Source of the DNA: Sympetrum striolatum | Lineage: Eukaryota > Arthropoda > Insecta > Odonata > Libellulidae | Direction: 5' to 3' | DNA: 64,000 bases | Assembly (NCBI GenBank): GCA_947579665.1 | Contig: OX388352.1 | Coordinates: 71,710,113 to 71,774,112, forward strand | In this document: one piece after another, positions 23,471 to 49,513 of the stretch | Numbering within the stretch: position 1 is the stretch's first letter | Layout of the letters: each line of letters starts with the position of its first letter | Made by a program: the position numbers and the translations under genes | Notes under the pieces: generated by a model | Seen by the model: only the letters and a program-made list of their open reading frames with translations | The model's database searches: none | What the model was told of the DNA's origin: nothing

Positions 23471-23971
23471 AATCTATTTTTCATTGTATTGGATTTATCC
23501 AAAAAAACTCGTACGTCGCAGCGTTCGTCGAATCGTGTGTTCGGTAAGCCGGTGGTTAAACAATCGACGGGCTACTATGCTACTTTGTGGCGCTCGCATA
23601 ACCTTGATAAATATTATTGTGCAAAATTTAGTCATATTTTAGTAGAGACTAGTATTGCGATTATTTTGGGCTAAGTATATATATTCCAAATGGTGTACCT
23701 TTCACGTAACGTATCTATCCGTAAGTAAAAGAGCCACCTATCTAATAGTGAACCATTATCTTAGAAAGTATTTCAACAGGATCTGTTCGTAGGTTTTCAT
23801 TCTAAGATAACTTTATTAGATTATGAGTAGGTTCAGGCGTGCATCAGAACATACTAATATTAATGTCAATAGATAAAAGTTTTAAGTTGAGTCCCCCAAT
23901 GGATTTCTATTATATTTTCCTCTGATTAATTTGTTTTGATGAAGAAGGCTACGGATTTGAAACAAGAGGTT

Positions 23972-25229
23972 GTACGAGGATGGTCTGAAAGGTTTCCGAC
24001 CAAACAAGGACACAAGATATTTTTTAAATATTTTTTTACTTTTCAACGTAGTCTCCTTGTAACTCTACACACTTCTCCCAGCGATGTTCCCATCTCTGTA
24101 ACCCGTCCAAATAGTACTCGGCGTTTTTCTCGGCAAAACAATTGTTCACCAAGGTGATTGCCTCTTCAGCTGACAAAAATCTCTGTCCTCCGAGAGCAAT
24201 TTTTAGATGAGGGAACAAAAAGAAGTCGCTTGATCTGGTGAGTAAGGCGGATGGTCAAGCAGTTCAAACCGTAATTCGTGGATTTTCGCCATGGCAACCG
24301 CTGAGGTGTGAGACGGAGGTCTAGGTGTAACAGGATTTTCTTTTTTTGCAAATGTGGCCGTTTTTCCGCAAGTTCTGCCTTCAGCTTGTCAATTAATGAT
24401 GCGTAGTATGCTCCTGTAATTGTTTTTCCTTTTTGAAGATAATCGATTAAAATAACTCCATGACTTAACCAAAAAAAAGTCGCCATCACTTTCCCAGCCG
24501 AAAAAACAGTTTTTGTTTTCTTTGGAGCCGGTTCCTCCTGTGCAGTCCGCTGTTTTAGACTGTATTTTTGTTTCGGGCGTATGGTGTATCCAAGTTTCAT
24601 CTACAGTAACTAAACAGCGCCAAAACTCAGATTTATTTCGCCTAAACTGCGCCAACAAAGCGTTGAAAATGTTCATTCGAACACGTTTATGGTCAAACTT
24701 AAGCAAACGCAGCACCCAACGCGCGGACAGCTTTCTCATGCCAAAATGTTGATTTAATATGTGACAAACACGTTCTTCTGACGAGTTCATATTCTCTGCT
24801 ATCTCTCCTACTTTAATTAGGCGGTCGTATAGCACCGTTTGGTGAACTTTGGCGATGTGTTCGCGGGTAGTTACAGTTTTTGGACGTCCAAGCTCTTACG
24901 GCCACGTTTAAATTTAGCTGCACAAAATTTCACTGTGATAAATGATGGTGCAGAGTCCCTATGCACAGAATCCAACTTATCCTTTATTTGCGTAGAAGTA
25001 TTACATTTCAAAAACAAATATTTAATGACAGCTCGATACTCGATTTTGACAATTTTCACAAAAACACATCAACTCACTCAAACAACTGTTACATAACAAC
25101 TGCACGTCCAAAATAGCTGAAACTTTGGTGAGTAACTGTCAACAGATGAACAACTAAATTCACTAGCTTTTATTTACGAGTGCTGCCATCTTCACGTTGA
25201 AGTCGGACACTTTTCAGAGCACCCTCGTA
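23972..25229 (-). mobile_element. Full-length mariner transposon, copy 1
   Basis: A 1.26-kb element is bounded by mariner inverted repeats: TACGAGGATGGTCTGAAAGG on the left and, on the minus strand, TACGAGGGTGCTCTGAAAAG on the right, each starting at a TA target dinucleotide. The length matches the family (about 1.3 kb). It contains a broken transposase gene on the minus strand. Confidence 0.92.
24036..25059 (-). pseudogene. Mariner transposase, frameshifted
   Basis: This D,D34D-type transposase cuts and pastes the element at TA sites. Starting at 25059 it shows the N-terminal helix-turn-helix segment (EYRAVIKYLFLKCN...SAPSFITVKF), then after a frame change the second DNA-binding helix region (LIKVGEIAENMNSSEERVCH) and the first catalytic motif TVDETWIHH. 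After further shifts come GVILIDYLQKGKTITGAYY, the second catalytic Asp in LLHLD, and the C-terminal end GGQRFLSAEEAITLVN...WEKCVELQGDYVEK. A 4-bp deletion right after the second Asp and another shift before the FPHLKIAL segment are shared with copy 2. Not functional. Confidence 0.92.
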
Positions 25230-26494: not shown

Positions 26495-27219
26495 CTCGCA
26501 AAACGTGTTCGAATGAACATTTCCAACGCTCTGTTGGCGCAGTTTAGGCGCAATAAATCCGACTTTTTGCGCCGATTAATTACTGTAGATGAAACTTGGA
26601 TACACCATTATGCGCCCGAAACAAAAATACAGTCCAAACAGTGGACTGCACAGGAGGAACCGGCTCCAAAGAAAACAATAACTGGTTTTTCGGCTGGGAA
26701 AGGGATGGCGACTGTTTTTTGGTTAAGTCATGGAGTTATTTTAATCGATTATCTTCAAAAAGGAAAAACAATTACAGGAGCATACTACGCATCATTAATT
26801 GACAAGCTGAAGGCAGAACTTGCGGAAAAACGGCCACATTTGCAAAAAAAGAAAATCCTGTTACACCTAGACCTCCGTCTCACACCTCAGCGGTTGCCAT
26901 GGCGAAAATCCACGAATTACGGTTTGAACTGCTTGACCATCCGCCTTACTCACCAGATCAAGCGACTTCTTTTTGTTCCCTCATCTAAAAATTGCCCTCG
27001 GAGGACAGAGATTTTTGTCAGCTGAAGAGGCAATCACCTTGGTGAACAATTATTTTGCCGAGAAAAACGCCGAGTACTATTTGGACGGGTTACAGAGATG
27101 GGAGCATCGCTGGGAGAAGTGTGTAGAGTTACAAGGAGACTACGTTGAAAAGTAAAAAAAATATTAAAAAAATATCTTGTGTCCTTGTTTGGTCGGAAAC
27201 CTTTCAGACCATCCTCGTA
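26495..27219 (+). mobile_element. 5'-truncated mariner copy 2 with broken transposase
   Basis: The right end matches the mariner 3' terminus, finishing in CCTCGTA at 27219; the 5' half is missing. The transposase remnant (about 26500-27155) reads KRVRMNISNALLAQFRRN, TVDETWIHHYAPETK, GVILIDYLQKGKTITGAYY and LLHLD. It then carries the same 4-bp deletion and second frameshift as copy 1 before GGQRFLSAEEAITLVNNYF and GDYVEK. Around HHYAPETK this copy is better preserved than copy 1. It lies in inverted orientation to copy 1 and is part of the inverted duplication. Confidence 0.9.
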
Positions 27220-27736
27220 CAACCTCTTGTTTCAAATCCGTAGCCTTCTTCATCAAAACAAATTAATCAGAGGAAAATATAATAGAAATCCATTGGGGGA
27301 CTCAACTTAAAACTTTTATCTTTTGACATTAATATTAGTATGTTCTGATGCATTCCTGAACCTACTCATAATCTAATAAAGTCATCTTAGAATGAAAACC
27401 TACGAACAGATCCTATTGAAATACTTTCTAAGATATTGGTTCACTATTAGATAGGTGGCTCTTTTACTTACAGATAGATACGTTGGGTGAAAGGTACACC
27501 ATTTGGAATAGAAATACTTAGCCCAAAATAATCGCAATATTAGTCTGGAAGAATTAAGAGTGTGATAGATTTTGAATGAAGGTAACTGCATTTGGTGAAT
27601 GTCAATCAGTTATGGGTTTACGGTAATCTAAAAGGTTAACAAAAACATAATCGACGTCGATATAAAATGAAGAAGAAAAAAAACTTGCTAACAAAATATC
27701 TGAAATCTAATGTAGTTAGGAAACGGATGTTTAGTA

Positions 27737-34826: not shown

Positions 34827-35838
34827 TTAACACTAGAAGGACGGAGGTGGTCATTTGACCACTTTTCAGAGTTTGACATCAAATTTTTTTCGTAAAATAC
34901 CTCACATTTTTTTGAAACTTTTTGACTTAGTTTATTACCATCCCAAAATTTGTTTTAAGTATTAAAATATTTTACTTCACTTTTAGGTTAAATTTTATAT
35001 CAAAATATACCTAGAAGGATGGGAGGTCGTCATTTGACCACCTACTTTTAAAATTCGTAATTCAATACTTTTATGATTTTCAAATACCTGAATTTTGCAT
35101 AACTTCTAAGTTTGACCATTACACAAATGCTGATAAGGTGTTTTATCTTATATTTTGTTTCAATTTTAATTAATTAAACAAAATTTTGACCGGTGTCCTA
35201 AATCTGCAGAATTTCATATTCTAGATTATTTTATCTATTCACACTGGACCAATGAAACTCATATTTAGGGAATAAGTTGAAAAAAGTCCGAATTGTTGAT
35301 AAAAGTCAGTCATGTCACACCAAGATTGTTATGCCCTCTGACGGAAACCATATAAAACCACTCGTTCGTGCCTCGGAAAAAACCTCCATCAAATACGATG
35401 GCAGAAGAATTTTTCGAATTTCATCGTGAAAATTTCCAATCTGTGGTTTTCGTCAGTGCCAAATCATTATATAACATTCAAAAATTCATAAAAAAAATTT
35501 TAGCAGGGTTGCCAACATATTAGTTTTATCATTACAAAATGTTCTTCCAATGTTTTTCTCAAGTAAATCTCAAACTGATATCTCAAGTTTACATTCAATC
35601 ACCTTTCTTGAACAATTAGAATTAATGTCAAGGGTACTAACTTTATAAATCAGGGCTACCGACGGAAGAACAGATCTCTAAACAGAGAGTTATGCATTCG
35701 CAGAATAAATAACTAAAGAGATATTTTGAGCACAGATGTGTTTCATGTGATTTGTCGAAACTCTTGGGGATCCCGAATAAGTTTAGAAACTATAAAGAAG
35801 CAGGGTTACTAAAATTTTCGGTTGTTAAGTGAATTCAC

Positions 35839-35864
35839 TGATCACTGCCTTAAGGCAGTGATCA
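35839..35864. repeat. Perfect 26-bp palindrome
   Basis: TGATCACTGCC followed by its exact complement. The corresponding place in the right arm (about 48648-48672) has only half of it, so about 20 bases were inserted as an inverted copy in the left arm after the arms formed. Confidence 0.85.
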
Positions 35865-36144
35865 GACCTTCATGGAAAACCTAGCAATTAATCATGCATT
35901 TATCGAGAATTGCCTTTTCTTACTAATATCTCATTCTGTGCTTATCCACTCTGGTGTTAGTTTTATTACCTTGATTTTTATTTTAGACTTACCATAATAC
36001 TTACATCATTCTTAAAATGTTATTTCCTTCCATCATTCGCTAGTTTACAATAAATCCAAGTCATTATAGTAACACTTCATCATCTTCACAATTTAAGGTT
36101 TGAAATCAAAATAAAGCTTCGCTATTGTTCCTACAAATTAATAT

Positions 36145-37450
36145 TTATTCCTTATTAATTAATGGATTAAAATTTTTACATATTTTTTTACCGCAGATTC
36201 TGCACATTGCCACTTTTACAGAGCATATTCCACTGTATATTTTCCCACATTTTAGGCACAAATTACTGGATTTGTTATAACATCCAGGTGAGATCTGACA
36301 CTTTCTTCTTTTCTGCGGTCTTATTGGCGCACTTGCTTCCCCTGATGAAATTCCCGACATTGCAAAGGAACATGAAAGCAGTGGCTCTATTATTATTATT
36401 ATTATTAGGGGTCTTTATTAGGCGAGATTGAGGATTGAGACTAAAAAGTCTCCTCTTCCATCTAACCTGTAAAGTAAAGCTCTATCTATAATGAGGTTCC
36501 AATAATTTCTAATACAAGTCTTTGAATTTACTCCTTCCGGCTGAGTTTACCCCCAGTGGTTTCTTTGAATAGAACCCTGCTGTTTATTGAGGCCAGGTCC
36601 AATATGTTAAAAAAATACATGCACTGGTCATCTCCTTGCAGCCGAATGAGTTACACATTTCCGGCACATGCTATCCATTATATCTACTCCTACTTTGTTG
36701 TTGTTGTAAAACAAAACTGTATCCGGTTTCTTTTTCTGAGTCAGAAATCATCACGTCCTGATGCATTGTACTGATTAAAAGCAAATTTTTATATTTTTTG
36801 CTTGGTAATTTGTTAAGCTATGGCCTAGTCTATTTTTATTAACTCTAGTTGAGTATATTTCAATGCTGTGATGAACCAAAACAGGTAATTCTCTTCTATT
36901 TTTTCTTATTGCTCCAACCAATGAGATTTTGTCTCTTTTTTAGTTTTTCAGCGAGGCTGATTGAAGAGAAGTAATTGTTGCAAGCTATGTTGATACCAGA
37001 GTTTTTGAACGGCTCTGCCAACCATAGCACAACACATTCTCCAAGAGACTGCCTTGGTCCCCTAGCATCATTTTTTCCACAATAAAGAAATGCATTTAGG
37101 CAATATTTAGACTTCACATCTGCTAATATACAGTACTTGATCCCAAACTTATCTAGCTTATTCGGCATGTATTGGATGAATGGGCATCGGCACTTCGTAG
37201 GATATAATTGTTCATTGGCCGTAACACTCTTATCATTGTTGTAGCAGGCTCGGGAGTTAGTTATAAATGTATTCCAAGGCTCAGAACCCAAAGCAATTTT
37301 TTTTCTCTCAGAGCTTGACTCCGAGTTTCTCTGTGATCAAACCGTAAATGTTTCATTATGCTTACGAATCGATCCTTATTCTTAGTTAGTGCTGGAGAAT
37401 ATTTTAGATACCTATGAGTAGATACAAAAAGTCTCTCCCAGCGCGTTACA
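36145..37450 (-). pseudogene. piggyBac transposase relic, left arm
   Basis: Reading downward from about 37450, a frame with KHLRFDHRETRS precedes the block 37291-36896. That block has TANEQLYPTKCRCPFIQYMP, DKFGIK, ADVKSKYCLNAF, QSLGECVVLWLAEPFKNSG and IACNNYFSSISLAEKLKKR, all hallmark piggyBac DDE-domain segments. After several frame breaks and a LINE-tail insertion, the C-terminal cysteine-rich domain follows (GYCNK-type CYNK, CLKCGK, CRICGKKICK), ending at 36145. In active relatives the motifs read T-x-DEQL and C-DNFFxS; here both Asp positions are Asn, so two catalytic residues are lost in addition to the frameshifts. The N-terminal part is absent. Confidence 0.9.
36403..36475 (-). mobile_element. 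LINE 3' tail inserted in piggyBac relic, left arm
   Basis: On the minus strand: GGTTAGATGGAAGAGGAGAC, CTCAATCCTCAATC, CCTAATAAAG and then (TAA)n. It resembles the LINE tail at 52950-53027. The same insertion sits at the same place in the right arm (48047-48125), so it predates the inverted duplication. Confidence 0.6.
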
Positions 37451-38724
37451 AGGTCATTCTACTAAAACAATGTTTAAAAGCAATTCCCGTGCTCCCTCGC
37501 GCGTCACCGCTTGCCCCGCCGCTTACCCCCGCCCGCTAGTACTTTCCCCTCCGCATTTTTAGAGAGAATTATAAAAATGTTCACACTTCTTTAAAAATTA
37601 ATTATCAAATGATTATCTTAAATGCTAGAATTGCTTATTTAAGAATTGCATGTTTCCAAAATATTCTTTTTTATTTCCTTGTAGTAATCTTTGATTTTCC
37701 TTCTTATAAAATTTCATCAAAAGTTTTCCATAAATTTATTCCTATCAGCTTGAAAATATTATTTACTAGGGCAAGTAATGCTTACATAGGTCTTAACAGA
37801 CACTTTTTATTTAGTTGAAAATATTTTCAATACTAGTTTTTGCGTTCTCCAATTCACCACTTTCAGATTCACAAAAAATTGTCAATATATCTACTCTGTT
37901 TAAAATATTTTTTGCTTTTTCACAAGAGTACGCTGAGTTATTGGTATGAATTTTAGAATATTTGAAAGTAATATTGCATTTTATCAATCAGCAAGGTTAT
38001 GAAAAACGAGAAAAAATTCTGAATTACTAGAGATAGTACGCTCATTTTATGTTGATAATTTGTGAACAGTTCTTCCGAATTCTTTAACTCATTTTTAAAA
38101 ATACACACAAGTGCAAATATGATGGATCTTGGTCTCTTATAGATAAACTTATTCACTGATAGAAATGATTAAGTGGAATAAGGGATTCTCTTTTGAAATA
38201 ATCTTTCAACATGCACGCGCTCCTAGAATCCGCTGATTATGCAGTACTTGTAACTTCTGCTGACCAAAGACGATATCAAATGCTCTCCTCGAAACAAATT
38301 CTCATGAAAATGATGTAAAAGAATACCTTATAATGAGTTGGTGAGAAAATTTACCTAGGGGATGAGTTAGAGTAAGGAAACTAGGGGTAGCGTTTATACT
38401 CCCTCTAACGCGTTGAAATTATGCTTGAATAGGAAGAAACGTTTGTAATGAAGCGGTAGTGGGGGTGAATAATTTAAATAGAACTAAATGAGGGGAACTT
38501 TCTCTTTTACTCCTATGCTTTGTCATTGAAGACTTGGTGTGACTTTGCTTCATTCTTCCATTTCAAGGTTTTGGAGTTATTCTTCCTGTTTGGAATTATT
38601 TCCTCTAAGAAGAAATACAGTAAAGTATTAACAGTTTAAACAGAAATCTGAGTAAGTATCAGTTTATATACTTTTGAGTTATTCCCTAGTATTATTTTTT
38701 AACAATTTTTTCAAAAATTTTAGG
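37451..38724. other. Unassigned stretch between piggyBac and polymerase relics
   Basis: No supported gene. A GC-rich patch (GCGCGTCACCGCTTGCCCCG, 37495-37555) stands out in AT-rich surroundings. Just upstream of the polymerase relic (38640-38720) the sequence is AT-rich and could hold its former promoter; nothing definite is visible. Confidence 0.45.
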
Positions 38725-40425
38725 ATGGAGTACAATCAGTTGAACCCTCAAGTAGGCGGTGACCTTTCGATCATTGAGATTGACAGGGCCATTAAGGGTC
38801 GACTGAAAACCTACTGAGTGGTGAGTGAAGCGCATAAAGACCTTATATCATTTCTAAATTATACTTCCGATCTTTTAATTCCGAGGATAAGGGATGAGCT
38901 AAGTAATTCTGCCCTTAAAATTAATATTGTGGTTAAGGCAAACTTTGAGAGGGGTGAGGAGACGATAGAACGAGCATTCAAAACGAGAAACGTTAGGTTT
39001 TGCTAGCCGATGACGTTGGGGAAATTTTAGAAAGTTTATTTGGAAAATTACTTAAGGAAAAATCCGAGATGTAGGTGAAGGGATCAGGGTGGGCACTGAG
39101 TAAAATCTTGGGTTTAGAGCTCCGAAGTAATCGTTACACTCCGTCACGCGGATCAACCTTTATTGAGCTACCACCCAAGATCGCAAGCAGAGAATCCGTT
39201 GTAAATGTTAGGAATGACGATCACTTTTGTTTTAAATACGCAGTTTGGGGAAAGAACATACATAAAGACCCTCAACGAGTCTACAAAGATAATACGGATG
39301 AATTCGACAATGAGTACGATTGAGATTGTATTGAATACCCAATCAAACTCTCCGATATTCCTAAATTCGAGCGAACAAATAAAATTTCTATTAAAGTTTT
39401 CGGGCTAGACGAAAAAAACAATGTATATCCAATAAAAATTGTAAATACCGATCTCGCAGAACATCGTGACCTATTATATATAACAAATGACAACACGGCT
39501 CATTATTGCTGGATTAAAAACTTTGAGAGTCTAATCCACCTTCAGATAACAAAAATGTCGTAGAATTTACATTTGCAAAGGATGCTTCATGCATTATCAT
39601 GACGGAAAAAATTAGAGAAACATACAACAAACTGTAATAGTAAAAAAAACCGCGAGAATTGAGCTAACTATCGAGGGGGATTAGATATTAAAATTTACCA
39701 AACTCGGGCATTCATTTCCAGTTCTGTATGTAATATATGCAGACTTTGAATGTATTCTCCAAGGTATCAGCACTTGTGAATCTTTACCTAACGCATCCTA
39801 CACGCACGCTATTCAGAAACACGAACCATTCAGCTTTTGCTATGTTCTCATAACGCCCAAGGGATTTGAGACACCACAGCTTCCCGAGGTCATAATACCG
39901 CACAGGTCTTTATGCAGAAAATGAAAGAGGAAGCAGAGAGAGTATTCCAGTTGTATAAAAACGTTGTGCCAATGGAATCGCTTAACCCGGAAGAAGAGGC
40001 AAATTTTAAGAATACTTGTCATGTCATATGTGTGGTAAAGAGTTGAAGTCAGATGCCGTTAGAGATCACAATCACTTGACAGGTAAGTATTGAGGGCCCG
40101 CACATTCGTTTTGCAACCTGCAGTACAAAATGCCAAATTTTCTACCTGTGTTTATTCATAATCTTTCATGGTATGACGGTCATTTCTTGGCTTGGGAGTT
40201 AGACTATGATGATAAAATAATTAATGTGATTCCCAACACCGAGGAAAAGTATATTTCATTCGCAAAGTCAATCGAAAATAATTTCACCATTAGATTTCTC
40301 GACACATGTCGCTTCATGTCAGCGTCATTAGCTTCACTGGAAACAACTTTAAAACCATTTAAAAATACTATTACTAATCATATGTCATAGTCGAAAACTG
40401 CTAAACTCTAAGTTTCATAAAAAAA
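38725..40425 (+). pseudogene. Polinton/Maverick-type DNA polymerase B relic (N-terminal and exonuclease part)
   Basis: From ATG at 38725 the relic reads through at least five stops or frame changes. Segments in order are RAIKGRLKTY, a region ending TIERAFKTRNVRF, SGWALSKILGLEL and GSTFIELPPKI, then FERTNKISIKVFGLD and HYCWIKNFESL. Next comes the Exo I region with YADFEC (Asp at 39742), a zinc-cluster-like CHMCGKEL...VRDHNHLTG segment (40020-40090), and the Exo II region HNLSWYD (Asp at 40175), then EEKYISFAKSI and IRFLDTCRFM. This order is characteristic of protein-primed family B polymerases of Polintons/Mavericks and related adintovirus-like elements in arthropod genomes. The polymerase palm with its DTD motif is missing, and no capsid, protease, ATPase or Polinton integrase gene is present nearby. 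Non-functional. Confidence 0.87.
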
Positions 40426-40782
40426 TGGAAAAATTATTTATGCGCCATATTTTGACTTTTTTTCGAAAGGATTAAATTAATTTTCATTGTTTTCCTACAG
40501 CATTTGCAACATAGAGTGACTTCGTTATTAAAAATCAATATAATAAACCCTTTTTACATACTCCAAAAGTTTTAAACTGTTAGGTTACTTATAAATAGGA
40601 AAAATATCAAAGTTAATGCAATATTGGTACATAAATGTTTAAGCATTTTTTAATTATTATAAATAGAAAAAGATATTTGGTTAAAAAAGTTAACATTTAT
40701 TTTTTTAACCCGCCTTCCTAGGTAAAGTAGACTTTTGCTAAATATAGTATGATACTGAATTATATTTCAACTTATGGTAATG

Positions 40783-40822
40783 TTACAGTTTACTTAGGGA
40801 TATATCCCTAAGTAAACTGTAA
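40783..40822. repeat. 40-bp perfect palindrome, left arm
   Basis: TTACAGTTTACTTAGGG, ATATAT centre, then the exact complement. The counterpart in the right arm (46883-46924) has two extra bases. It looks like two short termini abutted head to head, or a conserved cruciform. Confidence 0.88.
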
Positions 40823-40861
40823 TATATAACTAAAAATATATTTTTATTTTTTAGTTAAAAA

Positions 40862-41110
40862 AAGTTCACATTTTTCTGGAGATGTAGCATTAATATCAAT
40901 GTTTAATAACGAAAGTAACAATTTTCCTCAAGAGATGGCATTAGTGGCCAAGTTTATAAACAAAAGTTCAAATTTCCCTCAATAGATGGCATTAGTGGCG
41001 AAGTTTATAACCAAAAGTTCATATTTCCCTCAAGGGATGGCATTAGTGGCGAAGCTTATAAACAAAGGTTCCAATTTTCCTCAAAAGATGGCATTAGTGT
41101 CGAAGTTTAT
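40862..41110 (+). repeat. 57-bp tandem repeat, left arm (about 4 copies)
   Basis: The unit contains TTTCCCTCAAGAGATGGCAT, TAGTGGCGAAGTTTATAAAC and AAAAGTTC, repeated at about 57-60 bp. The period is a multiple of three and some copies read NFPQEMALVAKFINKSS-like in one frame, but no start or stable ORF exists on this side. Confidence 0.88.
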
Positions 41111-42297
41111 TATATAGTACACTTAATGTATCGAATGTCAATTCAATTATGGCTATCGGTATGGACAATACACGGAGATCGTGACAATTTGACTTTATTT
41201 GAGATTTGACAAGAGAGAAAAGAGATATAAAGATTCCTTCGATAGAAAGAGGAGATATAATAATTATAAAATATTAACCCTAGTAGCACAATTTGTGATC
41301 GCAACATGCTTGAAGCATTTCAGTGAAACATTTTAGGAATTTTAAAAATGCGCGTAGCACATTTTGGGTATGAAATTTTTGCCCGGTAAAAATGCGCCAG
41401 AAATGTGCAGTCAACATTTCGTCAACAAAATAGCTCGAAAATTCGCTATACACATTTTAATGTAAATCTTTCGAGCGGTCATTATATTCCAGATAATACT
41501 GAGTTTTTCATAAAATAATCGACGAAAACACAGGATATTATACAAGGTTTCAAATAAAATAAAGTTCTCATTAGTAAAAGAAATCAATGGCTACGTAATA
41601 ATTGTATGTTAATGAAGTATAATTTGAAATTTATTTAACATATATGTATGATATACCTCCAGTTTTCGTTGATTAATTTGGAAAATACCAGGTTGCATTG
41701 GAAATTTATCAAGTCTTCATTAGCCCTTTCTTTTAATTAAACTAGGTAAATATGAATTCTCTTTTCAGCTGAATGAAACATTATTAACAATAAAACTTTT
41801 CGATCACACATCAAATTTCCCTACGGACAAACAAACAAACGTTTTCATAATCCCTTACTTTTAATTAAACAGCTATCCACATAGCAGAATCACATCTCAG
41901 AGATATCTCGAATGTCTAACAAGATGTCTTGGAGATGCCCTAGTGACCTTTCGTGACATCTCCAAGGTATTTGAAAACACGATGAATATTAATAAAAGGA
42001 AACATTCTAAATCACTTATCAGCTGAATGACTATATTATTAATAATACTCGATCAAGCATTTCACACACATCACATTCCATCACTCTCTTCAGCAGGAAA
42101 ACAAAGTAAAACAGGAGATTAAGCTATGGTATTTTTTGTTTATTAAAACAAAAACATGTTCAACAAAAATTGTCACAAATCATGCGAGCTGTCAAACGTC
42201 ACGAAAACAACTACATTCAGAAAATTTTAAAATTATATACATGCTATTTTATAGTTTAACACGAATACACACATGGAATCGCAAAACGTTCCCACTA

Positions 42298-44659
42298 CAG
42301 TAAAACCTCGATAACACGTACTCTTTTAACACGAACCTCTCGATAACGCGAACAGTATCACGGTCCCGGCAGGGATGTATAGTGTCTTACGGGGTTTTGT
42401 TCGTTTAACACGAATTTCGGTTAAGACGAATTTCGAACAGTTTCCTCAATCCCTTGAATCATATAGTTCGCTTAAGGCGAACTGCCTGGCAGAATAAGAA
42501 CCATGACTTTGAGGATAATACGTTGTCTTGGTCCCTAGTTTTGAAACGATAACCAAATACAATGTAAGACTCCCAAGGAAATGCAAGGAATCCAATGAGA
42601 TAGTGTGACTTGTAGGCAAGGAGTGAGTCAGGGAGTAAGTTTGGATGAATTTTCTCAGTCTCCTCGTGTCGACGACTGTGAGTGAGTCTTTACTGAACAA
42701 CTGTAGCTACAGGAACAAAATATCTTTTTGCAATGAGCAAACGAAAGCAAATGAGTATTGATCTTCAAACGAAGCTTAAAATATTAAGTGAGGTGGAACG
42801 CGGAGCACGGAAGAAAACTCAGATTGCCCACGATTTTTGTATTCCAAAATCTCCTCATTGGTTTGTCAACGATAATCAAAAATCACGAAAAAATTGACGA
42901 AGCGGCTTCATTAGGAGGTTTTGAGCTGAAAGGAAATCGTATGCTTGAATCACATCTTAAGGACCTCGAAGATGAATTAATGGAATGGTTTAATCACGTC
43001 CGAGCAGCAGACGTGCCTATAAGTGGACCCGTTATACAGCAAAAGGCATTGTCAATTGCATCCAGTTTGGGAATGAACGACTTTAAGTGCTCCAGTGGCT
43101 GGCTGTGGCGATTTCGAAAACGCCGGGGAATCTCTTCGCAAGTGATATGTGGGGAAGCAAATAAAGTGAAAGAAGGAAGTGTCAATGAGTGGCTGGCTGA
43201 TTTTAAACTTATTCGAGAAAAGTACTCTCCTCGAGACGTTTTTAACATGGACGAAGCTGCTCTATTTTATAACCTCTTGCCAAGCCGCACTCTGAGCATT
43301 AAGGGAGAGAAATGCCATGGAGGCAGCCACAGTAAGCAGCGATTGACCGTTGTTCTCACTTGCAACTCGGACTGAAGCGAGAAGTTACGAGGGTAGATGA
43401 TTGGAAAATCAAAGAGCCCCCGATGCTTAAAGCACATCGAACTTTCAAAGCTGCCCTGCGATTACACCCACCACAAGAAGGCATGGATTGACGGCACTGC
43501 ATTTCGTGAATGGGTCGTGCGAACGTATGGCTGCTCAGAATCGTCATGTGTTACTCACGATGGACAACTGAGCTGCCCACAACCTAAGAAAAATGGAGTT
43601 GATTAACATCAAGGTTTGGTTTTTTCCGCCAAACACAACCAGTCGTTTGCAGCCGATGCATCAGGGAATCATCGCTCTACTGAAAAGGTATTATCGGACT
43701 CATCTGGTAGCAGCAGCGATCCTCGCAGCGGAAGGAAGTGTTAAATTAAGTTGGACTCTTTTGGATGCTATTAGAGCTATTGGAGCAGCTTGGGAATCTG
43801 TTTCCGCAAAGCATATTAAAAGTTGCTTCGATAAGGCTTGGACCCATAGTAATGTCGATTATGCTGTTGGACAAGGAGCGGCTACTGAAAAGGACACACC
43901 TGAGGAATGGGAGCTGTTGCAAACACTTTCGTCGACAAAGGTAAGTATCGTGAGAATATCTCCGCAGTTTGAGCGTTGATTGTATCTTCTTTAAAACATG
44001 TTTAAATTGAGTTTTTGCTTAAAATTACCAGGTTGAGTAAACGTTTGAAGAATATTTGGAGTTTGACAATGATTTGGCCGTATGTTCCTTTCCTGACGAG
44101 TAAGTAAACGCGAATAGCAAAGAATCATCTTCGGATGAAAGTGAGGAGGAGTCGCTTAAGCCTCCAACCCGTGGAGAAGTCACAACGGATCTAAATGTGC
44201 TCCAAAGATATGCAGCAACGGCAAATGTTTCCAGGACCTTTTCCGATAACTTAGATCGGATTAGACTTGACTGTATGAACCATTAGCGCCCTACTCTTCG
44301 GCAAAAGAATTTACAAGATTTCGTTAAACCTAATAAAAGCTAAAATGTTGACTTTAAAGACTGGTTATTTTTTTAAATTTATGTAATGCCTGACTGTGAT
44401 GTAAAATAAAAAAAAATTACCAATTTATTTTAAGTTTATCGCAAAAATTAAACTACGGAATATATTTACCTACCAATTGGTAAAGGAAGATTTAATAGAG
44501 ATTTTTGTGATCGTTACTTATACGTCAACATCATAATAGACGTCAGTATATCAGCAAGTATAATCGCACTTTTTTGCCGCGATACGGTTAACACGAATTT
44601 TTTCATAACGCGAACACTTTGCCCGGTCCCTTGAGATTCGTGTTAGCGAGGGTTTACTG
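42298..44659 (+). mobile_element. Tigger/pogo element 1 (2.36 kb, TA duplication)
   Basis: Bounded by CAGTAAAACCTCGATAACAC on the left and, on the minus strand, CAGTAAACCCTCGCTAACAC on the right, with TA on both sides. Near the right end, GATACGGTTAACACGAATTT and TTTCATAACGCGAACAC mirror the left subterminal AACACGAAC and GATAACGCGAACA. Length and termini fit the Tigger branch of pogo elements. Confidence 0.92.
42733..44345 (+). pseudogene. Tigger transposase 1 (CENP-B/jerky-like), broken, with one intron
   Basis: ATG at 42733 opens the CENP-B N-terminal HTH (MSKRKQMSIDLQTKLKIL...KKTQIAHDFCIPKS). After a frameshift near 42855 the frame 42860-43375 has the second HTH (WLWRFRKRRGISSQ) and the first catalytic block VFNMDEAALFYNLLPSRTLS. 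The second block (TMDN then AAH, near 43560) is split by a stop. WFFPPNTTSRLQPMHQGI follows, with His in place of the usual Asp. A GTAAGT donor at 43940 and a TTACCAG acceptor at 44031 suggest a short intron. The last part is acidic (SSSDESEEES) and ends near LQDFVKPNKS at about 44340. Inactive. Confidence 0.9.
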
Positions 44660-45317
44660 TATTCACACAAACCGCCAAACAGCACTTAAATTGTTAAACC
44701 ACACGATTTTTACACAAATTCGATTTTCAAACATTGACATCTATATCTAAATCCTTATTGATATGAAAATTCTCACTTCCACTGAGGAAATTACGGGTAT
44801 ACACTAAAATAAGTGAAGCCAAGCTACGCTGACGACATCAACTACCAAGGAAACACGCCACCACAATTCGTTCTTCAACTGTTATAGCTAGCTGCATTGG
44901 CTGCATTTACGCAGCACGCACGCTTTTAAATTCACCCATCAGATGATTTATGGTCTGCATCGATGATCTTTGTCTGATTACTTCGATAGATTATCAATTC
45001 TTGATGAGTTTAAGAATAGTCCGCTGGTTTTTCTGCTGTTTGACAAGACGGCTACTGTTGCATTTAAAACTTGTTCCATCTCCATAATTCTTTAACCTCG
45101 AGTTGAATTCAACAGATCTGTCGAAACGTAAATCATTGCATCGTTTTTGTTCATTGATTGTTGCATTATAAATACGTTATATTTCCCATTGTAAGTTGAT
45201 ATTTACTGGCTTTTATGAGGTTATTGATATTAACATTTGAATGATCCGCTACTGTCATCAGAACCATATATTATATATTGACTCTTCATCGCGAATTAAT
45301 TATCTCCATGAAAGCGA

Positions 45318-45422
45318 TGGACATCGGTGGAAAGCATCGTAAATCCATCGGTGAATAAAGAAACGGTTGATGGATCCATCGATGACTTTAAAAACGGATT
45401 GATGGATTTACGATTCCATGGA
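45318..45422. repeat. ~100-bp imperfect hairpin
   Basis: GGTGGAAAGCATCGTAAATCC is mirrored by GGATTTACGATTCCATGG around a GATGGATCCATC centre. It has no coding content. Confidence 0.7.
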
Positions 45423-46469
45423 TGAATTTTAAAAAGTGCCTATTGCTGAATAAGAATTTTTATTTCATTTACTTTCTTTAAGCCCTTGTCTCTATTACAA
45501 ACGACCACTTTCTAATTTTAGTTGGCAAAAAGAAAGAAAAGCTGTATTCAATCAAAAATTTTTATAATTATTAGTTATAGAAGGAAGTGGAATGAAATTT
45601 TGCACAAACATATGCTTGTAACATGTTCAGAAAAACGTGCGCTCTAAAATCACCTTAAAACATTTTTAGCACATGCTCACGTTGTGATTCTGATATATTT
45701 GAGCTAAAATGACTAAAATTCCCTGAGCACATGCTCAGCATCTTCTGTGCTACTAGGGTATAATCGCTTCTTGTCTGGCAATGGGGTATGACTTAGTGGA
45801 AACATCAGAGACGATAACAGGAATGAGGGATCACGGTGCGTTCTGTTTTACATACCACTTTTGGATTATAAAGCCGATACATTAAATGTAAAAATGATCA
45901 TCAAAAAAATTGCGCATTGCTGGAAAAAATTACTCATGTACAAAGGGTAGATTATGATACAATTTGATGTAAATATCATTGCCACAAGTTGCAATGTATT
46001 GGAGGTATTACATGATTAAATTTAATGTGACTTCACCATTCAGCCGGTTGCATACTCAATTTTCGTTTTGCATCGCTGCAAGTGCAATTGAAAATACTTG
46101 GAAGAAATAAATAAATAGGAAGTTAGTGCATAAAATTGACAACAAACTGTGTTAAAAACCGTTTCTACGTAGCAAAGTTACGAATAAAAAAATTAATATA
46201 GTTCTCCATCGCTGAAGTACTCCTTTGATAACATCAACATAATTCAGACGTTTTTTTTATATAAAAGTTATTTGTATTAAATTATTTACTTTAATCAATT
46301 AATTTTTATATTGTTTATTGATATTGTATTAATTACTGATATATTTTAGAAGTAAACGTCACAAAAAAGATTCGATTCCCATGAATACATCGAAAATGGC
46401 AAAGGTCTATTTACTGATTGAACTTTTTAAATTAAACAATTACATTAAAGCTATATTTTAAAACATACA

Positions 46470-46830
46470 TGGAAAATTGGAACTTTTGGTTATAAACGTC
46501 GACACTAATGCCATCTCTCGAGGAAAATTGGAACTTTTGTTTATAAGCTTCGCCACTAATGCCATCTCTTGAGGGAAATAGGAACTTTTTGGTTATAAAC
46601 ATCGGCGCTAATGCCATCTCTTGAGGGAAATAGGAACTTTTGGTTATAAATTTCAACACTAATTCCATCTCTTGAGGAAAATTGGAACTTCTGTTTATAA
46701 ACTTTGCCACTAGTCCCATCTCTTGAGGAAAATTGGAACTTTGGTTTATAAACTTTGCCACTAATGCCATCTCTCGAGGAAAATTGGTACTTTCGTTATT
46801 AAACATTGACATTAATGCTGCATCTCCAGA
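46470..46830 (-). repeat. 57-bp tandem repeat, right arm (about 6 copies)
   Basis: Inverted counterpart of 40862-41110 with more copies. On the minus strand the units encode NFPQEMALVAKFINKSS-like 19-residue repeats over about 126 codons, with frame drift. Copy number differs between arms, as expected for a tandem repeat evolving after duplication. Confidence 0.88.
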
Positions 46831-46882
46831 AAAATGTGAACTTTTTTTAACTAAAAAACAAAAATATATTTTTAGTTATATA

Positions 46883-46924
46883 TTACAGTTTATACTTAGG
46901 GATATATCCCTAAGTAAACTGTAA
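46883..46924. repeat. Palindrome, right-arm counterpart
   Basis: Inverted copy of 40783-40822 with a TA insertion in one half (TTTATACTTAGGG against CCCTAAGTAAA). Confidence 0.85.
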
Positions 46925-47234
46925 CATTACCATAAGTTGAAATATAATTCAGTATCATACTATATTTAGCAAAAGTCTACTTTACCTAGGAAGGTGGGTT
47001 AAAAAAATAAATGTTAACTTTTTTAACCAAATATCTTTTTCTATTTATAATAATTAAAAAAATGTTTAAACATATATATACCAATATTGCATTAACTTTG
47101 ATATTTTTCCTATTTATAAGTAACCTAACAGTTTCAAACTTTTGGAGTATGTAAAAAGGGTTCACTATATTAATTTTTAATAACGAAGTCACTCTATGTT
47201 TTAAATGCCATAGGAAAATAATGAAAATTGTTTT

Positions 47235-47511
47235 CATTCCTTTCGAAAAAAAGTCAAAATATAGCGCAAAAATAATTTTTCCATTTTTTTATGAAACTTA
47301 GAGTTTAGCAGTTTTCGACTATGACATATGATTAGTATATTAGTATATTTAAATGGTTTTAAATTTGTTACCAGTGAAGCTAATGACGCTGGCATGAAGC
47401 GACATGTGTCGAGAAATCTAATGGTGAAATAATATTTGATTGACTTTGCGAATGAAATATACTTTTCCTCGGTGTTCAGAATCACATTAATTTTTTTATC
47501 ATCATAGTCTA
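47235..47511 (-). pseudogene. DNA polymerase B relic, right arm
   Basis: The minus strand reads LDYDDKKINVILNTEEKYIS, FAKSI and IRFLDTCRFMPASLASL, matching 40199-40450 in the left arm. It starts abruptly at 47511, where the sequence switches to piggyBac. The exonuclease I and II motifs present in the left arm lie in the portion lost here. Confidence 0.85.
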
Positions 47512-48368
47512 ACAATTACTTCTCTTCAATCAGCCTCACTGAAAAACTAAAAAAAAACAAAATCTCATTGGTTAGAGCAATAAGAAAAAATAGAAGAGAA
47601 TTACCTGTTTTAGTTCATCACAGCGATGAAATATACTCAACTAGAGTTTATTAAAATAGACTAGGCCATAGCTTGACAAATTACCAAGCAAAAAATATAA
47701 AAATTTGCTTTTTATCAGTACAATGGATAAGGACGTGATGATTTCTGACTCAGAAAAAGAAACTGGCGGTTTCTTTTTCGGAGTCTGTTTTCTGATATAG
47801 CTTTGTTTTACAACAACAACAAAGTAGGAGTAGATATAATGGATAGCATGTGCCGGAAATATGTAACTCATTCGGCTGCAAGGAGATGGCCAGTGCATGT
47901 ATTTTTTTAACATATTGGACCTGGCCTCAATAAATAGCTGGGTTCTATTTAAAGAAACCACTGGGCGTAAACTAAGCCGGAAGGAGTAAATTCAAAGTCT
48001 TGTATTTAGAAATTATTGGAAACTTATTATAGATAGAGCTTTACTTTACAGGTTAGATGGAAGAGGAGATTTTTTAGTCTCAATCCTCAATCTTGCCTAA
48101 TAAAGACCCCTAATAATAATAATAGAGCCACCTCCCTCATGTTCCTTTGCAATGTCGGGAATTTCATCAGGGGAAGCAAGTGCCCCAATTAGACCGCAGA
48201 AAAGAAGAAAGTGTCAGATCTCACCTGGATGTTATAACAAATCCAGTAATTTGTGCCAAAAAATGTAGGAAAATATACATTGGTATATGCTCTGTAAAAG
48301 TGGCAATGTGCAGAATCTGCGTTAAAAAAATATGTAAAAATTTTAATCCATTACTTAATAAGGAATAA
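47512..48368 (+). pseudogene. piggyBac transposase relic, right arm
   Basis: It begins within the segment NNYFSSISLTEKLKK (again Asn at the catalytic Asp position). Through frame breaks it includes LPVLVHH and the same LINE tail as the left arm, and ends in the cysteine-rich C-terminal domain (ICSVKVAMCRICVKKICKNF) with a stop at 48368. The upstream DDE part present in the left arm is missing. Confidence 0.87.
48047..48125 (+). mobile_element. LINE 3' tail inserted in piggyBac relic, right arm
   Basis: GTTAGATGGAAGAGGAGATT, CTCAATCCTCAATC, GCCTAATAAAGACCCC and (TAA)n. This is the inverted-arm partner of 36403-36475, with a shorter triplet tail. Confidence 0.6.
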
Positions 48369-49513
48369 ATATTAATTTGTAGGAACAATAGCAAAGCTTT
48401 ATTATGATTTCAAAGCTTACATTGTGAAGATGATAAAGTGTTACTATAATGACTTGGATTTATTGTAAACTAGCGAATGATGGAAGGAAATAACATTTTA
48501 AGAATAATGTAAGTATTATGGTAAGTCTAAGATAAAAATCAACGTAATAAAACTAGCTCCAGAGTGGATAAGCACAGAATTAGATATGAGTAAGGAAAGG
48601 CCATTCTCGATAAATGTATGATTAATTGCTAGGTTTTCCATGAAGGTCTGATCACTGCCTTCACTTTACAACCGAAAATTTTAGTAACCCTGCTTCTTTA
48701 TAGTTTCTAAACTTATTCGGGATCCCCAAGAGTTTCGACAAATCACATGAAACACATCTGTGCTCAAAATATCTCTTTAGTTATTTATTCTGCGAATGCA
48801 TAACTCTCTGTTTAGAGATCTGTTCTTCCGTCGGTAGCCCTGATTTATAAAGTTAGTACCCTTGACATTAATTCTAATTGTTCAAGAAAGGTGATTGAAT
48901 GTAAACTTGAGATATCAGTTTGAGATTTACTTGAGAAAAACATTGGAAGAACATTTTGTAATGATAAAACTAATATGTTGGCAACCCTGCTAAAAATTTT
49001 TTTATGAATTTTTGAATGTTATATAATGATTTGGCACTGACGAAAACCACAGATTGGAAATTTTCACGATGAAATTCGAAAAATTCTTCTGCCATCGTAT
49101 TTGATGGAGGTTTTTTCCGAGGCACAAACGAGTGGTTTTATATGGTTTCCGTCAGAGGGCATAACAATCTTGGTGTGACATGACTGACTTTTATCAACAA
49201 TTCGGACTTTTTTCAACTTATTCCCTAAATATGAGTTTCATTGGTCCAGTGTGAATAGATAAAATAATCTAGAATATGAAATTCTGCAGATTTAGGACAT
49301 CGGTCAACATTTTGTTTAATTAATTAAGATTTAAACAAAATACGAGATAAAACACCTTATCAGCATATGCGTAATGGTCAAACCTAGAAGTTATGCAAAA
49401 TTCAAGTATTTGAAAATCATAAAATATTTAATTACGAATTTTAAAAGTAGGTGGTCAAATGACCACCTCCTGTCCTTCTAGGTAGGCCGAAACTGCCGTC
49501 CTCCTAGTGTTAA

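Follow-up and report, generated by a model that had tools for sequence, protein, structure and literature searches.

Foldback elements such as FB and Galileo have long inverted arms, tandem repeats of variable number and non-autonomous copies, and they belong to a superfamily other than piggyBac. Long palindromes are unstable; a palindrome of 8 to 10 kb is nonetheless carried as transposon cargo by the element described here, which occupies positions 34831 to 49509 of a 64-kb stretch of the Sympetrum striolatum genome (GCA_947579665.1, OX388352.1; this stretch is called the window, and its positions serve as coordinates). The copy in the window is very probably a member of a multicopy, non-autonomous, foldback-type piggyBac family with a long imperfect palindrome as its body. 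Unlike FB and Galileo, this family has piggyBac ends, a TTAA target and a fragment of DNA polymerase B (PolB). Three features are shared with piggyBac of Trichoplusia ni as described in the excerpts of PMC7351741: the TTAA target, a terminal repeat, and a palindrome in the left end (LE), there at bp 17-33. The right end (RE) moreover repeats an LE-like unit inward in both, RE bp 34-63 resembling LE bp 7-35 in T. ni (PMC7351741, same excerpts) and RE bp 27-63 resembling LE bp 1-35 here. Teratorn also combines piggyBac ends with long inverted repeats that contain internal ends, and it is associated with viral genes, but according to the available parts of PMC10175614, PMC5822658 and PMC6431247, the last of which also treats foldback elements, it is a fish element of 41-182 kb that encodes an active transposase and carries herpesvirus genes, whereas the window family measures 8 to 10 kb and resides in an arthropod. 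No report of such an element was found in literature searches of open-licence papers, and a text search for the terminus turned up a single, unrelated paper.

The features of the window copy are compiled in Table 1. Its inverted arms, proposed earlier in a sequence-only reading of the window, were confirmed at about 93% identity, with the limits measured here. That reading had described a palindrome of 14.7 kb; the structure is real and not a one-off, but the size includes 4.5 kb of nested transposons. Because 41277-45759 was inserted later, the undisturbed unit is about 10.2 kb. The arms are of unequal length, as the right arm has no counterpart of left-arm positions 36980 to about 40200; the joint shows a short GTT microhomology. 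Since a transposase frame crosses 36980 and a PolB-like frame crosses 40198 in the left arm, the left state is probably the older one and the right arm a deletion. Both arms contain the 40-bp palindrome noted earlier, perfect on the left and with a 2-bp insertion on the right. They also contain a tandem array, for which a period of 51 bp was measured, not the 57 bp of the sequence-only reading. Long inverted arms with internal tandem repeats, found in many copies, are what defines a foldback-type element, and all of these are present here.

Table 1. Features of the foldback-type piggyBac copy and its surroundings (window positions)
Feature	Position	Strand	Remarks
TTAA target site, left	34827..34830	.
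LE-type end	34831..34865	+	14-bp terminal repeat; 16-bp palindrome at bp 17-32 (34847-34862)
Second, internal end-like unit	35006..35041	+	within LE side, like RE bp 26 onwards; also in L026
Left (full) arm, outer part	35008..36995	+	inverted copy at 49484-47497
Gene-conversion tract	35194..35825	.	2 arm differences in 632 bp
Decayed 3' half of piggyBac transposase	36145..37440	-	first half missing; limits by eye
N-terminal PolB fragment, frameshifted	38724..40390	+	polymerase region missing; start by eye; matches 39000-40370
Left arm, inner part	40198..41110	+	inverted copy at 47513-46595
Perfect 40-bp palindrome	40783..40822	.
51-bp tandem array, left	40901..41109	+	4.1 units
Centre, left piece	41111..41277	.	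joined straight to 45760 in 9 other loci
Nested transposon	41277..45759	.	CCCTAGTAGCACA termini; missing from centre of 9 other loci
Tigger/pogo-like element inside nested transposon	42296..44661	+	HTH_Tnp_Tc5 and DDE_1 pieces, terminal inverted repeats
Centre, right piece	45760..46468	.
51-bp tandem array, right	46471..46818	-	6.8 units
Right arm, inner part	46595..47513	-	with about 176 bp of PolB
Right (deleted) arm, outer part	47497..49484	-
Junction of 3.2-kb arm deletion	47509..47515	-	common to other copies
RE-type end	49447..49509	-	terminal repeat, its repeat at bp 27-40, palindrome at bp 44-59 (49466-49451)
TTAA target site, right	49510..49513	.

The host assembly (1,349,600,149 bases in 544 contigs) was searched with positions 40198-40450 as query. 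Forty of the 904 candidate sites were scored; every one matched, at 92-100% identity, and two of them are the arms of the window. Sixteen other loci were fetched, compared to the window by BLAST and tallied; C8, C46, and C49 were chosen since two matches faced each other. Facing inverted arms were detected at nine of the 16 loci (at L025 by one 315-bp piece only), and at seven the complete order of arm, 51-bp array, 0.88-kb centre, array, and inverted arm was present. The deletion junction of the window right arm recurred at 13 of the 16, and the breakpoint was the same in 13 of the 14 deleted arms whose junction was read, L018 being different. From the transposase to 37.9 kb, the piggyBac-PolB join was unbroken in five of the 16. 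Since other copies carry the join, the objection that this adjacency exists only once, which had been raised as a possible refutation, falls away.

These data also bear on two simpler explanations. Inverted arms are a classic artefact of hairpin reads, and the assembly was judged from its sequence alone. Mis-assembly is nevertheless extremely improbable, as outside the conversion tract the window arms show about 5% difference and several indels, and as the same arrangement is found again on contigs of 83 to 128 Mb. Alternatively, the pattern could stem from two oppositely oriented elements that inserted independently, or from unrelated fragments piled up, in a window that is rich in transposons, and TTAA sites alone cannot tell one insertion from two. 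The same palindrome, centre, and arm deletion at several loci, the lack of further TTAA-flanked ends in the window, and empty sites for one whole copy (see below) make this explanation very improbable. Both were rejected.

As stated in the sequence-only reading, TTAA followed by CACTAG(A/G)AGGACGG is present in inverted orientation at both outer edges; these are the only two such sites in the 64 kb when up to two mismatches are allowed, and 0.02 were expected by shuffling. CACTA is among four piggyBac terminal motifs listed in the excerpt of PMC10813416. The palindrome GTGGTCATTTGACCAC is located at bp 17-32 from the left TTAA and at bp 44-59 from the right TTAA, and RE bp 27-63 can be aligned to LE bp 1-35. 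Terminal repeats with an internal palindrome at LE and RE are characteristic of the piggyBac superfamily. Since the palindrome positions match the LE/RE pattern of T. ni, the outer ends are an LE-type and RE-type pair spaced as in T. ni piggyBac, not two 3' ends. Four LE and six RE were detected in the fetched loci by a search that demanded TTAA and allowed up to three mismatches, which more decayed ends would escape; the palindrome starts at bp 17 in all four and at bp 44 in all six. Unlike T. ni piggyBac, the family has CACTAG-type termini, a further end-like unit about 177 bp in on the LE side, no working transposase, and a palindromic cargo of 8 to 10 kb.

According to the sequence-only reading, an inverted dimer may have been mobilised through its paired 3' termini, which would here be two identical RE ends. 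The left outer arm does start with an RE-like unit at 35006, and native T. ni transposase can excise RE63/RE63. It did so without integration, however, only LE35/RE63 being both excised and integrated by the native enzyme, while a hyperactive T. ni transposase is less strict on end pairing (PMC7351741, excerpts). In addition, the terminus adjoining TTAA is of the LE type, with the same layout, in the window, L015, L021, L026, and L031, and in each of the three copies with both ends read (the window copy, L015/L016, and L028/L031), one end is LE-type and the other RE-type. Paired 3' termini are thus not supported, and an RE/RE dimer, which was rejected as well, appears highly unlikely. The family offers a natural test of whether LE/RE asymmetry is needed outside T. 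ni piggyBac, and the three copies obey it.

No mutual similarity at E 1e-5 was detected among flanks of 1.2 kb taken from the window copy, L010, L015/L016, L017, L025, and L026. For L015/L016 (8,639 bp), three paralogous repeats with 83.4, 79.5, and 83.0% identity are continuous across the joined flanks. These empty sites read TAAA, TGAA, and TAAA in place of TTAA, with no gain or loss at the joint. As the empty sites are seamless, the palindrome of L015/L016 was inserted as one piece; the whole palindrome moved as a unit. The two hallmarks of piggyBac insertion are therefore present in the family, TTAA flanks in the window and a seamless empty site for L015/L016.

The two arms of a copy are alike. 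The window arms differ at 71 of 1,943 columns but at only 2 of 600 in 35194-35793, and their longest identical run, 328 bp, was reached in none of 10,000 permutations. Within the tract at 35194-35825, the left arm differs by 3-9% from 13 arms of other loci; the 14th arm, of L023, differs by 1.5% over only 66 bp. With such differences at other loci, the tract is not a slow region, and selection was rejected as the cause of its low divergence. The window arms are alike through gene conversion. In a tree of 19 arms, built from 35870-36960 and hence outside the tract, both arms of a copy paired in all five copies with arms long enough (support 0.908-0.998, window 0.920), as they had in three of three copies, all among the later five, in an earlier tree of 16 arms. 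The tree groups arms by copy, not by arm type, and by plain distance the partner is the nearest arm in four of the five copies. How the arms of one element convert each other can also be tested in this family. A second stretch of low divergence, two differences in 169 positions, surrounds the 40-bp palindrome (40701-40869). In L026 the deleted arm is on the LE side and in L025 an arm of the non-deleted type is on the RE side, combinations that could come from recombination between arms.

The piggyBac 3' sequence that had been described inside both boundaries was found again in both arms. The frame at 36896-37336 on the minus strand matches DDE_Tnp_1_7 (Pfam E 1.4e-20) and aligns to residues 247-360 of piggyBac (PDB 6x67), and transposase homology continues toward the C-terminus in both arms, interrupted by frameshifts. 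An autonomous piggyBac requires a complete transposase with three catalytic Asp residues (D268, D346, and D447). At the position of D268, Asn is present in the window and Asp in L021; at that of D346, Asn is present in the window, L021, L024, and the relatives P0007 and P0009. The element is therefore non-autonomous as judged from its sequence, its transposase being a 3' fragment with catalytic Asp replaced. The nearest named relative, P0009 from the dragonfly Ladona fulva, is 70% identical over 54% of the query. Autonomous piggyBac also has a cysteine-rich domain at the C-terminus; a Cys-rich frame is present at 36148-36414, with no Pfam match.

For PolB, which had been reported for both arms, the result is mixed. 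The sequence is present in both, but it represents a truncated, frameshifted N-terminal fragment, of which the right arm has only about 176 bp because of its missing stretch. The frame at 40094-40390 matched DNA_pol_B_2 with E 0.021, below the cut-off, and five other pieces of the region gave nothing notable in the family search. Its relative P0001 (52% identical, E 2e-18) passed the DNA_pol_B_2 cut-off, as the only one of six relatives, and through it the fragment resembles the type B organellar/viral family, as in Polinton/Maverick. A longer PolB-like relative is encoded by L001, a 6.6-kb contig filed under a Gastranaerophilales metagenome-assembled genome, two frames of which align to window positions 39000-40370 (best E 3e-24 and 7e-25). 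Since the match to the second frame stops at residue 202 of 780, the later part, expected to hold the polymerase domain, is missing from the window; this second frame had no DNA_pol_B_2 match at E 0.01, and its polymerase motifs were judged by eye. Along L001 (1-6569), Bro-N and a weak VRR_NUC match below the cut-off accompany the PolB-like frame, and the contig looks like a virus or linear plasmid. Scans of viral contigs with PolB, piggyBac, and end motifs yielded 0 relatives, the phage collection contained none, and none were found for the N-terminal PolB piece at 39324-39560.

Polintons generate target duplications of 6 bp. In the element, the termini are instead of the piggyBac type at TTAA, and in place of a complete protein-primed PolB only the N-terminal fragment was found. 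Integrase, packaging ATPase, protease, and capsid families were not detected in the 17 window frames searched, out of 32 of at least 68 aa, a weak test as these frames are short and decayed. As far as tested, the sequence-only reading had placed too much weight on PolB. A fusion of the Teratorn kind would imply that the captured virus or Polinton polymerase was functional and that a larger parent, able to replicate itself, left the copies behind as remnants. Longer PolB-like frames elsewhere, 235 and 154 aa in L024 and 177 aa in L021, indicate that the family ancestor had a better frame, and in Teratorn the long inverted repeats are edged by piggyBac ends (PMC6431247, in part). However, in L024 the PolB frame ends where that of the window does, before the region that L001 continues to encode, and the 17 window frames revealed no capsid, ATPase, protease or integrase family. 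Teratorn is defined by a herpesvirus gene set and an active transposase; here the transposase is broken, and PolB is the only viral family in the 17 of 32 frames that were searched. A functional capture is therefore unlikely.

A foldback-type piggyBac family could have arisen and spread as follows. In an ancestor, a piggyBac 3' half would have been joined to a PolB-bearing segment. A second, inverted copy of this RE-side arm would then have been placed beside an LE, the inner breakpoint falling within the 51-bp array, and one arm would have lost 3.2 kb before the element spread. A transposase from elsewhere may recognise the terminal repeats and palindromes of LE and RE, excise the whole element, and join it to a new TTAA. 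That an ancestral piggyBac-PolB join became inverted and was mobilised had already been suggested from the sequence, and this is supported by other copies with the join and by the empty sites for one copy, L015/L016. The family may also serve to test how virus-type polymerase genes come to lie in cut-and-paste transposons. Perhaps, though this is tentative, it constitutes an arthropod foldback branch of piggyBac, 8 to 10 kb in size, in which the palindrome is kept alike by conversion between its own arms and the LE side has an extra unit of the transposase-binding type, and which goes back to a fusion of piggyBac with a virus or Polinton that carried PolB, a small parallel to Teratorn.

Several observations weigh against the multicopy, non-autonomous family as described. 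No autonomous partner was found, and no genome-wide search for one was completed. Facing arms were not seen at seven of the 16 loci, several of which were fetched one-sided, and excluding C8, C46, and C49, facing arms plus centre are present at five of 13. For the C8 copy no far end was found, nor did an extended look reveal second arms of L025 and L026. In L015 and L025, a separate deletion in the arm without the junction has removed the piggyBac-PolB join. Flanks are shared by L021, L027, and L028/L031, and L022 carries part of one; these loci therefore probably stem from a single insertion that was duplicated along with the sequence around it. Of the empty TTAA sites called for earlier, those of L015/L016 are 17-20% diverged and no longer exactly TTAA, and at the loci examined none were found for the window or L028/L031 (9,383 bp), leaving one of three tested copies with empty sites. 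Finally, outside the tract the window partner is only the seventh nearest arm by plain distance (5.1% versus 3.9% for the nearest).

Some further features of the arms were recorded. The 51-bp unit corresponds to 17 codons, and the array keeps a frame of 147 aa open (46432-46875) that has no Pfam match above the cut-off. A 28-bp insertion at 47766-47794, found in the window right arm only among 16 aligned arms, is an inverted copy of neighbouring sequence, as a template switch would leave. At 35838-35865, 20 extra bp in the left arm complete a 28-bp palindrome with TTAA in its middle. It looked like a second piggyBac end but was rejected as one, because the 15 other aligned arms do not have it and the change is thus private to this arm. 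Inside the conversion tract, a TATAAAA motif precedes an ATG frame of about 41 aa (35351-35523) and appears promoter-like by eye. The 159 bp at 38299-38457 of the left arm are missing in L020, L021, L027, and L028, and apparently kept in L024. L020 (3102-7147) is a rearranged copy, in which the deleted arm adjoins a full-arm piece of opposite orientation on its outer side.

Pieces related to the nested transposons occur at other loci as well. A piece of the nested transposon of the window lies close to the centre of L023 (1168-2760), and in L026 (1104-2754) a Tigger-like copy is located directly beside the array. Rfam at gathering scores gave no match. Outside the element, the window contains another inverted pair, 23646-24688 and 26501-27546, which is 96% identical and the second member of which overlies a mariner-type Transposase_1 frame.

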